From Bacteroidota bacterium (GTDB lineage Bacteria; Bacteroidota; Bacteroidia; Chitinophagales; UBA10324): DNA of 64,000 nt. Where the stretch lies: positions 77,382 to 141,381 of the forward strand of contig BJGQ01000002.1 in assembly GCA_014190575.1 (NCBI GenBank), written 5' to 3'. The notes beneath the pieces were generated by a model that saw only the letters and a program-made list of their open reading frames with translations, searched no databases and had not been told where the DNA came from. Below are positions 2,093-51,740 of this stretch, piece after piece; the first letter of the stretch is position 1; every line of letters begins with the position of its first letter. A program made the translations under genes and the position numbers.

Positions 2093-5000
2093 TACACTTG
2101 CAACAATAAATACTAATTCAACTTGTGGTACACAGAATGGAAATATTAATTTGAGTGTAGTTGGCGGAATTGCACCTTTTAATTATAACTGGTCAAATGG
2201 AAACACCAATCAGGATTTGCAAAATATTTCATCAGGGAATTATTCTGTAACAGTATCAGATAACTCAGGATGTTCTTCAACACTTACAACTATTTTGAAT
2301 AATACTGGTGGAGTAATAGGAGTGAACCTCACAATTAATTATCCGACCTGTACTGTTTTGACAAATGGTTCTGTAATTGCGAATGGAAATGGTTCATCAG
2401 CTCCTTACACCTATCATTGGTCAACCGGTTCAAATTTGCCATTCATATTCGGAGTTTCAACAGGAAATTATTATTTGACAGTGACTTCAGCATCAGGATG
2501 TTCTATAGATACTTCAATTTATATTCCGTCACCTGTTCCAATTTTTGTGATTGACTCTGTAGCACCATCGGTTTGCGGAAACTTTGCCGCACAACTATAT
2601 GTATCTGTAACAGGTGGTTCAATGCCATACCAATATCACTGGTCGAATGGTGCGACAATTGAAGACTTGCTTTATGTAAATGGTGGAGTTTATAATTTGA
2701 CAGTTACTGACTCTCATAATTGTATGGGATTGTTATCAGTAAATATTCCAAATATTTTGTTGCCTTACCTTGCTGAAACACATGTTGATGCTTCTTGCGG
2801 CAATGCTACTGGCAATATTGACCTGGTGCCAAGCGGAGGAAATCTTCCTTATCATTTCCAATGGTCTAATGGTGAAACAACTGAGGATGTGGCTAATCTT
2901 ATTGCAGGTATTTATACTGTAACTGCATTCGATGCAAATGGTTGTACTTCATCACTAAATGTTACAATCAATAATTCAAATGGTCCCGTGTTAACCGAAA
3001 CTCATCAGGATGATTATTGTGCTCATTCAATTGCAAGTATTGATTTAACAATTTCTGGTGGAGCAACTCCTTATCAAATTAATTGGTCGAATGGAAGCAC
3101 TACTGAAGATTTAAATACTATTTCTTCCGGAAATTATAATGTAACAGTTGTGGATGCGAACGGATGCAGTGTTACAACAACTATAAATGTAAATGGATTG
3201 AATGGACAAACAGTTTCGCTTACCGCAATTTCACCAATGTGTAATGGAGCTTCAAATGGTTCTGTTACGGTTGATGTTTTTGGCGGTGTTCCGAATTTAA
3301 GTTTTATGTGGAGCAATGGAATGACATCGCAAAATCTTAATAATGTTGGTGCAGGAAATTATTCTATAACAGTAACAGATGGTTTTGGGTGTGTGGTTTC
3401 GAATAATACAACATTGATTAATCCAGCAGCGCAAACAGCCACAATCGTAAATACACAAATCTGTTCGGGTGGAAATTATGTTTTACCTAATGGAACATCA
3501 GTGAATACAGCCGGAACTTACACTTCAACTTTAACTTCAGTAAGCGGATGTGATTCTGTAATCACCACTAATCTTTCAGTGAATTCAATTCTAACTTCAG
3601 CTGTGAACGCACAAATCTGTTCGGGTGGAAATTATGTTTTACCAAGCGGTGCTTCGACAAGCTCAGCAGGACAATACATCACAACATTAACAAGTGTGAG
3701 TGGATGTGATTCTGTTATCACAACTAATCTTTCTGTGAATTCAATTCTGACTTCAACTGTGAATGCACAAATCTGTTCAGGTGGAAATTATGTTTTACCA
3801 AGCGGTGCTTCGACCAGCTCAGCAGGACAATACATCACAACATTAACTTCAGTAAGCGGATGTGATTCTGTTATCACAACTAACCTCTCTGTAAATTCAA
3901 TCCTGACATCAACAGTCAATGCACAAATCTGTTCTGGTGGAAATTATGTTTTGCCAAATGGTACATCAGTAAGTGCAACAGGAACTTACACTTCAACTTT
4001 AACAAGTGTGAGCGGATGTGATTCAGTTATCACCACCAATCTTTCAGTGAATTCAATTTTAACTTCAATAGTGAATGCACAAATCTGTTCAGGTGGAAAT
4101 TATGTTTTACCGAATGGAACTTCGGTGAATGCAGCCGCAACTTACACGACGACATTAACTTCAGTAAGTGGATGTGATTCTGTTATTACAACAAATCTTT
4201 CGGTGAATTCAATTTTGACTTCAACTGTGAATGCACAAATCTGTTCTGGTGGAAATTATGTTTTACCGAATGGAACTTCGGTGAATGCAGCCGCAACTTA
4301 CACGACAACATTAACTTCAGTAAGTGGATGTGATTCTGTTATCACAACTAACCTCTCTGTGAATTCAATCCTGACATCAACAGTCAATACTCAAATCTGT
4401 TCAGGCGGAAATTATGTTTTGCCAAATGGAACATCAGTGAATACAGCTGGAACTTATACTTCAACTTTAACAAGTGTGAATGGATGCGATTCAGTAATCA
4501 CAACAATTTTAAATGTGGGAAGTCCTACAGCTTCAGAAACTCATATCGATGCGGCGTGCGGAATGGCAAATGCAAGCATTAATTTGAATGTAAGCGGTGG
4601 AATTTCTCCATACAATTATACCTGGAGCAATGGTGCAACCACAGCAAATATTTCGATGCTTTCTGCTAACAATTACTTAGTAACTGTAACTGATAATAAT
4701 TCTTGCCAATCAATTTTAAGTGTAAATATTAATAATATCAATGGACCTGTTCTTACCGAAAATCATTTGAATTCATCTTGTGGAAACCCGAATGGCGCTG
4801 TTGATTTAACAGTAGCCGGTGGTGTTCCTCCAATGAATTTCATTTGGAGTAACGCAGCAGTAACCGAAGATATAAATAATATTCCACAAGGAATTTATAG
4901 TGTTACAGTTTCTGATGCTAACAATTGTGTTGCGTCATTAAATATTTCAATTGGTGGAAATAACATTCCTGCAGTTTCTGAAACACATATTGATGCAAGT

Positions 5001-48446: not shown

Positions 48447-49226
48447 ATGCACATCTCTCTGCAAAATAAAAGCACTAAAGTTTTCATGGTGCTCAGTTCT
48501 TTCTTTGTTGCCAACGCATTGATTGCTGAATGCATCGGTGTAAAAATATTTTCGCTTGAAAAAACTTTGGGATTAAATCAACTTAACGCTACTGTTTTTG
48601 GTGAACATGGAATTTCTTTCAACTTAACATGTGGAGTTTTATTATGGCCATTGGAATTTATTATGACAGATATTATAAATGAATATTTCGGGCCTAAAGG
48701 GGTGAGGCGTGTTTCTTATATTGCGGTTAGTTTGATTGCCTATGCGTTTATCATGTTTTATTTTGCCATGCAACTTTCACCGGCTGATTTCTGGACAGGT
48801 GTAAACGCGGCTAAGGGTGTTCCTGATATGACGGCTGCTTTCAATTCAATATTCGGTCAAGGTATGTGGATTATTTTCGGTTCGCTTACTGCTTTTCTTG
48901 TTAGCCAGGTGGTTGATGTTACAGTGTTTCATTGGGTGAAGAGGAAGACAGGCGAAAAGAAAATGTGGCTTCGTGCTACAGGAAGCACTTTGGTTTCTCA
49001 ATTGGTTGATAGTTTTATTGTGCTGTTCATTGCATTTTACATTGGGCAGGGATGGAGCATGAGTCTGGTACTGGCTATTTGTTTATTCAATTACACTTAT
49101 AAGTTCATGGCTGCAATTGTACTTACTCCTGTTATGTACCTCGTTCATAATTTTATTGATAATTATCTTGGCGCTGAACTAGCGCACGAAATGAAACAAG
49201 CAGCGATGAAAAGAGTTAATGAATGA
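48447..49226 (+). CDS. yhhQ: Queuosine precursor transporter, YhhQ family
   Basis: 259 residues with six to seven membrane helices. FNLTCGVLLWPLEFIMTDIINEYFGPKGVRR is the family signature (PF02592 type), and the later SQVVDVTVF and QLVDSFIVLF helices carry the paired Asp residues. Known role: uptake of queuosine precursors (preQ0/preQ1) for tRNA modification. No que genes or preQ1 riboswitch were seen nearby. Confidence 0.9.
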   Translation: MHISLQNKSTKVFMVLSSFFVANALIAECIGVKIFSLEKTLGLNQLNATVFGEHGISFNLTCGVLLWPLEFIMTDIINEYFGPKGVRRVSYIAVSLIAYAFIMFYFAMQLSPADFWTGVNAAKGVPDMTAAFNSIFGQGMWIIFGSLTAFLVSQVVDVTVFHWVKRKTGEKKMWLRATGSTLVSQLVDSFIVLFIAFYIGQGWSMSLVLAICLFNYTYKFMAAIVLTPVMYLVHNFIDNYLGAELAHEMKQAAMKRVNE

Positions 49227-49440
49227 GTACAGAAGGAAATCAGATCTGCTATGGAACATAGTTAAAGTGATTTGATTTATAGTAGGTATCGCAGAGGCTT
49301 CAGCGGATTTGATTTGGTATATGTCAGATTTGATAACGACTGGTTGTACTATACAATGCTTCTTTTTTGATTGTGAATAATTAGCCGAAAGATTTTTACT
49401 GAACAAAGAAAAGATTATGCTTGGCTGGTTACATTCGCAC

Positions 49441-49605
49441 CGTTGTGGTTTCCTGAACCAAGTAAGGAATGAAAAGGGAATGAGGTGAGATACCTCAACA
49501 GTCCCCGCTGCTGTGAATCTTGAATTAGTAAACTAAAAATTGCCACTGATTAAAATCGGGAAGGCGGTTTACTTTAAGGATAAGTCAGAAGACCTGCCAC
49601 TGCAA
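49441..49605 (+). promoter_or_regulatory. Cobalamin (B12) riboswitch
   Basis: The order of conserved blocks is complete: AAGGGAATGAGGTGAGATACCTC at 49474-49496 in two parts (the core and a GAGGT/ACCTC stem), then AGTCCCCGCTGCTGTGAAT, GCCACTG at 49542-49548, CGGGAAGGCG, and the B12 box AAGTCAGAAGACCTGCC at 49582-49598. A short outer stem (GTGG 49445-49448 with CCAC 49597-49600) closes it. A -7-like TACATTCG at 49430-49437 would start transcription right at its 5' end. A CTGTTG/CAACAG hairpin at about 49671-49698 separates it from the next ATG and may be part of the expression platform. Nothing else was recognised in 49227-49440. Confidence 0.9.
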
Positions 49606-49727
49606 AAGGAATGAATGCGCTTTCGGAGGAAGGGCTGCTCAGATTTCAGTTGAAAGTTATTTCACTGATTGCTGTTGCACCTATCTTCTTACAACAGATT
49701 AAACTAAAAAACAAAAAATAAATCACA

Positions 49728-51035
49728 ATGAAAAAGACAATGAAAATTAAAGCAATACTAAGTGCATTGGTTTTTTGCACAGTTAACGCATTTGCGCAGC
49801 AATCGCTTCACCAGGTTATTGTGTTAAACGAAGGACGATACAATTACATACTTCAGCAAATTGACAAGCCTGTAACCATTGGAACTTATAACCCTCAAAC
49901 AAATGTGTATTCGGTATTTGATACCATTGATAATGCCCGTTTTGCTTCTGATGTGGTTGTTGATGATGCGAATATTTATGTATCGGCTGATAACACTTTG
50001 TTAAAGTATGATTTGAATACGCATCAATTGATATCTACTCAAACCGTTAATGGTATTCGTAAACTCGCTTTGTGGAATGATAAAATTTTATTGACCCGCG
50101 GAGAATACCAAACTACTTATGATTCCTATTTTCAGGTTTATAATAAAGCTGATTTAAGTTTTGTTTATCAGCTTGATACTTTGAACGGACCGCATTATGC
50201 ATCGGATGGTATTGTGGTAAAAGATAACACTGCCTACATTGCCATCAACAATGGTTTTGTGTGGGGAGGTGCGGTTGGAATTGTTGGTCGTGTTGATTTA
50301 TCGAATCAAAATTATCTTGCTGAAATATCACTTGGTGTTGATGGAATTAATCCTGAAAACATTCTGATTGATAACAATAAAATTTACACAGTGAACAACC
50401 GCGATTATTCGTATGCATCTATCAGCAGCGTGGATATTTCAAATGCGAGTGTGATTACTACCAACCTTAACAATGCGGGCGGTTGCCAGGGTTCTGCTCT
50501 TATTAATTCACGCATTGCATACCAGACTTACAACGAAAATTTCATTGGTCGATTTGATGTGACTACACAAAACATAAGCGATTCACTTTTTATTAACCGA
50601 TCAGTTTATGCAATGGCTACTGATGTGGTAAACGAACAACTCTATGCTTCAGAAACTGATTTCAGTTCTTATGGTTTGGTTTTGATTTATTCATCCAATG
50701 GAAACCTGATGAATGCATTTGTTGCAGGTGTTACTCCCGGTAAATTTGCTTTTGATTATCGCAGCGCAACCGGAATGAGCAATGCGATTGTTCTTTCACA
50801 ATTAATGGTATTCCCGAACCCTGCTACTTCGCAATTAACAATTGCAGGTACCTGCACTGAAAAAAATTCTTCCATTGTTATAACTTCAATTGATGGTAGA
50901 ATAATGTATGAGGAAGTTGTGAATGAAAACAACTTTGTTCGACACATTGATATTGCAGCTTTTGCATCGGGCACTTACTTACTCAGTATAAAATCAGAAC
51001 ATAACTCTTCGGTTCAGAAAGTTGTGAAGTATTAA
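49728..51035 (+). CDS. B12-riboswitch-controlled T9SS type A beta-propeller protein (YncE/BtuG-like)
   Basis: 435 residues: signal peptide (about 1-26), a ~320-residue propeller, then a T9SS type A sorting domain (MVFPNPATSQLTIAG to KVVKY). The propeller begins with VIVLNEGRYN and has blades such as DVVVDDANIYVSADNTLLKYDL, DGIVVKDNTAYIAI and ENILIDNNKIYTVNN, in the style of the YncE/DUF5074 group that includes the surface cobalamin-binding lipoprotein BtuG of Bacteroides. The only gene after the cobalamin riboswitch and before a terminator, so it is expected to rise when B12 is low. Inferred: a surface cobalamin- or corrinoid-binding protein anchored by T9SS rather than by lipid. No TonB receptor adjoins it here. 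Confidence 0.75.
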   Translation: MKKTMKIKAILSALVFCTVNAFAQQSLHQVIVLNEGRYNYILQQIDKPVTIGTYNPQTNVYSVFDTIDNARFASDVVVDDANIYVSADNTLLKYDLNTHQLISTQTVNGIRKLALWNDKILLTRGEYQTTYDSYFQVYNKADLSFVYQLDTLNGPHYASDGIVVKDNTAYIAINNGFVWGGAVGIVGRVDLSNQNYLAEISLGVDGINPENILIDNNKIYTVNNRDYSYASISSVDISNASVITTNLNNAGGCQGSALINSRIAYQTYNENFIGRFDVTTQNISDSLFINRSVYAMATDVVNEQLYASETDFSSYGLVLIYSSNGNLMNAFVAGVTPGKFAFDYRSATGMSNAIVLSQLMVFPNPATSQLTIAGTCTEKNSSIVITSIDGRIMYEEVVNENNFVRHIDIAAFASGTYLLSIKSEHNSSVQKVVKY

Positions 51036-51045
51036 TTCTTTAAAC

Positions 51046-51093
51046 AGAAAAAAAAAGCCGCTTCAAAATTATTGGAGCGGCTTTCTGTTTTTT
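51046..51093. terminator. Bidirectional terminator between the propeller gene and carbonic anhydrase
   Basis: AAAGCCGCT (51055-51063) pairs with AGCGGCTTT (51076-51084). A CAGAAAA/TTTTCTG-type extension gives A and T tracts on both sides. Confidence 0.9.
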
Positions 51094-51116: not shown

Positions 51117-51740
51117 TTATTCGTAGAAGGTTACATGACCGGTGTCTAAATCATAAAGGCCACCAACGATTTTAATTTGATTGGATTGCTCCATCTCGGC
51201 TAAGAGGCTGCTTTGTTCTTTTATTTTTTGAACAGTTATAAATACATTGTTGGCAGTAACATTATTTACAAAGTGTTTATTGTTTCCATTGCGGTTGTCA
51301 ATGGTTTTGGTCTCTAAATTTATTGCAGGCTTTATCTTGTTTAATAATGTAGTTACATGACCCAACTCAATATTGTTGCATGCTCCTTCAATGGCGCCAC
51401 ATTTTGTATGACCAAGTACTACAATCAATTTTGACCCAGCTATTTTACAAGCGAACTCCATGCTACCCAGTATATCATCATTCAAAATATTTCCGGCAAT
51501 GCGAATGCTGAATATATCGCCCAATCCTAAATCGAAAATGAGTTCGGCTGATGTTCTTGAATCAATGCAACTTAAAACGGCGGCAAATGGAAACTGACCC
51601 GATGAGGTTTCGTTCACCTGCTCGAGCAAGTTTCGGTGCGCTTTAATATTGCTAACGAAACGAGCATTGCCCTCCTTTAATATTTCAAGAGCAGTTGCGG
51701 GTGTCAGGTTGCCCTGTGTGTCTTTGGTATGAACCCTCAT
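51117..51740 (-). CDS. Beta-class carbonic anhydrase
   Basis: 207 residues. Zinc ligands Cys58 (LSCIDSR), His111 and Cys114 (LGHTKCGAI), with the Asp60-Arg62 dyad of beta carbonic anhydrases. It interconverts CO2 and bicarbonate. No signal peptide, so cytoplasmic. Single gene. Confidence 0.93.
   Translation of the reverse strand: MRVHTKDTQGNLTPATALEILKEGNARFVSNIKAHRNLLEQVNETSSGQFPFAAVLSCIDSRTSAELIFDLGLGDIFSIRIAGNILNDDILGSMEFACKIAGSKLIVVLGHTKCGAIEGACNNIELGHVTTLLNKIKPAINLETKTIDNRNGNNKHFVNNVTANNVFITVQKIKEQSSLLAEMEQSNQIKIVGGLYDLDTGHVTFYE

Follow-up and report, generated by a model that had tools for sequence, protein, structure and literature searches.

A cobalamin riboswitch precedes a BtuG-like propeller gene with a T9SS export signal in a clade of Bacteroidota

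In published descriptions, BtuG homologues are surface lipoproteins linked to btuB (PMC6143338, Wexler 2018; PMC10404256, Abellon-Ruiz 2023). The locus considered here lies in a 64,000-nucleotide stretch of DNA from a Bacteroidota bacterium (the window), and raises the question of what a propeller protein with a T9SS tail does under a cobalamin riboswitch. It is probably a stand-alone, B12-repressed and T9SS-exported corrinoid-capture protein of the BtuG type, a reading that presupposes a B12 response, corrinoid binding, a surface location and a receptor. This reading draws on the strength of the riboswitch, the conserved riboswitch-propeller pair, the kinship to BtuG, the aligned pocket aromatics, the btuB and BtuF-like context, the B12 need of the genome, and the T9SS tail together with the translocon gene SprA. 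The features of the locus are collected in Table 1.

Table 1. Features of the riboswitch-propeller locus in window coordinates
Feature	Position	Strand	Basis
Cobalamin riboswitch aptamer	49429..49615	+	RF00174, 113.5 bits, E 1.2e-27, model 1-189 (full length)
Covarying hairpin, GCUUU-CGGAGGA-AGGGC (probable P13-like element)	49619..49635	+	14-locus covariation
BtuG-like propeller gene with predicted T9SS export, 435 aa	49728..51035	+	ATG 49728, stop 51035; domain searches, AF2, Foldseek, VIA-align, hhalign
Signal peptide region, about residues 1-25	49728..49802	+	Sequence inspection, alignment A1
Seven-bladed propeller domain, about residues 25-348	49800..50771	+	VIA-align to 3dsm, 8bmz
Type A T9SS C-terminal sorting domain, residues 361-433	50808..51026	+	PF18962, TIGR04183
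Intrinsic terminator	51054..51084	+	13-bp stem plus T run

The complete B12-riboswitch core claimed by the first-pass annotation was recovered by Infernal with the Rfam model, at a score that exceeds the gathering score of 31.5 bits and with a start slightly earlier than the previously given 49441. It is the single cobalamin riboswitch found by cmscan in the window, and no second one was found in the window genome (3.19 Mb in 91 contigs, 98% complete). RF00174 riboswitches permit expression at low intracellular cobalamin. The 5' neighbour (48447-49226), a queuosine-precursor/Vut_1 transporter gene, stops about 200 bases before the aptamer, and the 3' neighbour, a carbonic anhydrase gene (51117-51740), lies on the minus strand and converges on the terminator, which is placed just past the end at 51035 of the region annotated first. 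Given these neighbours, the unit consists of the riboswitch plus one gene, and the earlier description of one gene followed by a strong terminator stands. It contains no TonB receptor, and the btuB linkage is thus absent. A queuosine-precursor-transporter gene is found just 5' of the riboswitch elsewhere in the window genus as well (L034, L036, L037), and a similar-looking one occupies this place in L066, which belongs to a different family.

The protein had been described as carrying a signal peptide and a type A T9SS sorting domain, and both were found. Inspection shows an ordinary signal peptide at the N-terminus, which ends in ...NAFA before QQ. A conserved lipobox is absent, the sole nearby cysteine, C17, not being kept in relatives such as L036. 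At the C-terminus, Por_Secre_tail (PF18962) scores 48.5 bits against a cut-off of 27 and TIGR04183 scores 39.6 bits against a cut-off of 23, in line with the proposal of a T9SS export signal in place of a lipid anchor. The window genome (G000) encodes the T9SS translocon protein SprA (SprA_N, 514 bits) and numerous further T9SS-tailed proteins. The tail of type A T9SS cargo is removed while the protein becomes surface-attached or released. As a sub-case of the capture reading, the propeller could be a released B12 scavenger, forming an extracellular corrinoid store, rather than the lid of a cell-surface receptor. This is unlikely: although release of type A cargo is possible, the operon has no BtuB gene and none was recognised elsewhere in the genome, many such proteins remain attached to the surface, and retrieval of a binder set free in this way would again require a receptor.

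The AF2 model of the window protein, built from nine aligned sequences (pLDDT 82.4, pTM 0.82), is a propeller, as had been proposed from the sequence under the label YncE/DUF5074; the fold was upheld, while the DUF5074 label was not, since PF16819 has no Pfam match in the window protein, though relatives match. An olfactomedin (OLF) match of 25 bits was taken as a generic propeller match. The suggested relation to BtuG was supported by Foldseek, in which ranks 1-13 are all BtuG1/2/3 or the homologue 3dsm (best E 2.7e-18), and by phmmer against the PDB, in which BtuG entries rank first at E about 1e-3. VIA-align gives Z 33.4 to 3dsm and 33.3 to BtuG2 (8bmz) over about 300 residues, and Z 33.4-31.8 for 11 entries of BtuG and its homologue; nitrous oxide reductase reaches only 28.4 and YncE 27.4, and the archaeal YVTN propeller 1l0q has Z 29.7, but with an rmsd of 7.6. 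In hhalign, the profile of the window family matches that of the riboswitch-linked BtuG lipoproteins with a probability of 99.2% (E 7.7e-20, 299 columns).

Five aromatic residues have been named in the corrinoid pocket of BtuG2: W194, Y239, W272, Y316 and Y335 (PMC10404256). After a shift of 31 positions into the numbering of 8bmy, all five residue letters agreed. In a 56-sequence alignment, at less than 20% identity, W194, Y239, Y316 and Y335 align with F177, Y227, Y294 and F312 of the window protein, so that four of the five have aromatic counterparts; Y294 is invariant in the nine-sequence alignment. W272 has no counterpart, and it is likewise not retained by other aligned lipoprotein BtuG-like proteins. 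The correspondence is no more than suggestive.

Propeller folds serve many ligands, and the gene might instead encode a B12-repressed secreted propeller with a role other than corrinoid binding, for example one that binds a different nutrient or a metal, or that acts as an enzyme or adhesin required only under B12 scarcity. The common fold, together with an identity to known BtuG of only 15-19%, counts against corrinoid capture, and the unconserved W272 and the lack of an adjoining btuB point the same way. Such a role is nevertheless improbable, as Foldseek and VIA-align both place the BtuG entries well ahead of every other propeller, most pocket aromatics have aromatic counterparts in the alignment, and relatives have BtuF-like and btuB neighbours.

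The known system closest to the proposed capture protein is that of BtuG1/2/3 of Bacteroides thetaiotaomicron (PDB codes 8blw, 8bmy, 8okv), whose seven-bladed propeller is the best structural match. The window protein shares with them, by sequence alignment, several pocket aromatics, and also a predicted B12 riboswitch control and a B12-dependent host, but it carries a T9SS tail and not a lipobox with a lipoprotein export signal, and it is not encoded with btuB. YncE-type propellers (PDB code 3vgz) have the same common general fold, although their Z score is lower and their context differs. The DUF4465 proteins BtuJ1 and BtuJ2, which bind B12 (PMC13398666, PMC12751083), are likewise accessory extracytoplasmic binders under B12 riboswitches, but they have a jelly-roll fold unrelated to the window propeller; the forms described are lipoproteins and periplasmic proteins, and T9SS is not mentioned (PMC13398666). 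The first-pass annotation knew of no description of T9SS cargo under B12 control, and none of the open-access papers searched, which cover neither bioRxiv preprints nor most subscription titles, connects T9SS cargo with B12 binding or with cobalamin riboswitches.

The search for the same pair in related genomes showed that the riboswitch lies directly 5' of the propeller gene in 26 of the 31 T9SS propellers of the window clade, three of the 31 being from Crocinitomicaceae or unplaced Bacteroidota records. A propeller relative is present in 52 of the 150 genomes of the order, and the variant of riboswitch plus T9SS propeller is widespread in related bacteria. The five loci that lack the riboswitch are L070, L071, L074, L077 and that of genome G012 (L037/L058). 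The UTR of the latter aligns with that of the sister species with the aptamer core deleted and the gene intact and, to judge from this alignment, represents a decayed switch. These five loci count against the capture reading.

Exactly one cobalamin riboswitch was found in 13 of the 16 genomes of the window's family. What follows it is the T9SS propeller in the window genus and in genus g3, a btuB-like TonB receptor in genera g4, g5, g7 and g8, and in genus g2 a TonB receptor with a lipoprotein BtuG-like protein next in line (genes in the sister genera were named from the look of the sequence and from BtuB searches). In family f14, a BtuF-like gene lies directly 3' of the riboswitch-linked T9SS propeller in L065, L067, L068 and L069, the Peripla_BP_2 Pfam match behind this name having been tested for L067 and L068. 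In a second subclade the riboswitch-linked T9SS propeller of L075 is followed by a gene (2971-3960) that shows a weak FGE-sulfatase-type domain in Pfam, which was run for this locus; L076 and L080-L084 look similar to L075.

Between the aptamer and the start codon, a 5-bp hairpin is common to 14 UTRs, with 98.6% of cells paired. Double changes occur at four of its five pairs (15 double-change cells versus 4.2 in shuffles), and the pairing is lost when the partner strand is slid. These compensatory changes and the sliding control support the hairpin as a maintained regulatory element, and it is probably a P13-like regulatory hairpin. The complementarity of its loop to a putative kissing partner extends over 7 nt in f14 relatives and only 5 nt in the window. 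A riboswitch that is a mere relic, or whose target is some transcript other than this gene's, is very improbable, since order and spacing are constant in the 26 loci across families and the covarying hairpin lies in the leader, even though G012 shows that the switch can be lost with the gene kept.

The first-pass annotation suggested that the change of anchor may belong to this lineage, and here the tree gives a different picture. With the tails removed, all 31 T9SS propellers group together (100/100) as a single old clade, separate from the BtuG-like lipoproteins; the tree is unrooted and agrees with either direction of the anchor change in this main clade. A separate T9SS-tailed group occurs in family f55, where the propellers of L218 and L223 directly follow btuB under a riboswitch and fall among the lipoproteins, which indicates that the T9SS tail was there either gained separately or kept. 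A further T9SS protein, L180, has a very long branch and an unreliable placement.

The phylum was surveyed with 60 high-scoring riboswitch loci, mostly one per genus, a sample that favours high scores and is not a rate estimate. TonB receptors dominate, often followed by BtuG-like lipoproteins, and seven of the 60 loci contain a T9SS-tailed gene (L177, L180, L183, L218, L219, L223 and L224). In L183 (2352-3317) the second gene after a TonB receptor under a B12 riboswitch encodes a DUF4465 protein with a T9SS tail (Pfam), and L177 has a similar protein by the look of its sequence; the two are candidates for a further kind of T9SS-exported B12-binder. In L219 (568-1515) and L224, the first gene under the riboswitch encodes a T9SS-tailed protein with no assigned domain, with a TonB receptor gene 3' of it and then the beginning of a BtuG-looking lipoprotein gene; the L219 protein has no relative in the PDB. 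In L193 and L208 the first or second plus-strand ORF resembles, on sequence inspection, an acyl-CoA thioesterase and not a transport gene.

The window genome needs B12, because it encodes MetH and the acyl-CoA mutases (IcmF and the methylmalonyl-CoA mutase C-terminal subunit). In searches with sister-genus BtuB, a short-BtuB alignment and the plug domain, BtuB was not recognised in the window genus and generic TonB receptors alone were obtained, leaving the receptor step of the capture model unaccounted for. The best BtuB candidate, G000 C31, has an HmuY gene next to it and probably serves as a receptor for haem. A divergent BtuB may be present among the some 18 TonB receptors of the genome.

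FecCD (BtuCD-type permease) was recognised in none of the ten family genomes searched, and all ten encode DUF6580 (PF20221), a small membrane protein. Its gene in the window genome is found at G000 C22:38509-39006 (L281:7007-7522), and in other genomes (L054, L046, L047, L181, L189, L192, L221, L229) it often adjoins btuB, as in sister genera, or a B12 riboswitch. DUF6580 is a candidate inner-membrane corrinoid carrier; none of the open-access papers searched mentions it. A B12 route of the genus without BtuB and BtuCD, in which the T9SS propeller would capture, an unrelated TonB receptor would import and DUF6580 would provide passage across the inner membrane, is offered only tentatively and at low confidence.

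For the capture protein itself, low intracellular cobalamin would let the riboswitch permit expression of the gene. The signal peptide would direct the product across the inner membrane and the T9SS across the outer membrane, where the propeller would lose its tail as it becomes fixed at the surface or is set free. The pocket face of the propeller would bind cobalamin or other corrinoids, which would then be passed to a putative outer-membrane receptor encoded elsewhere. The propeller would in this manner take on the role of BtuG, with T9SS export where BtuG has a lipid anchor and with no set btuB partner in its operon.

So far, descriptions of B12 capture at the surface of Bacteroidota concern BtuB-tied lipoproteins from species of the gut. 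Here, an entire clade, made up mostly of uncultured Bacteroidota, places a B12 riboswitch on a BtuG-like protein with a T9SS export signal, often with no btuB nearby. If the capture reading is true, it would link T9SS to vitamin acquisition, predict that B12 binders, whether secreted or attached to the surface, also occur in settings other than the gut, and pose a testable question on the route by which these cells take up B12.
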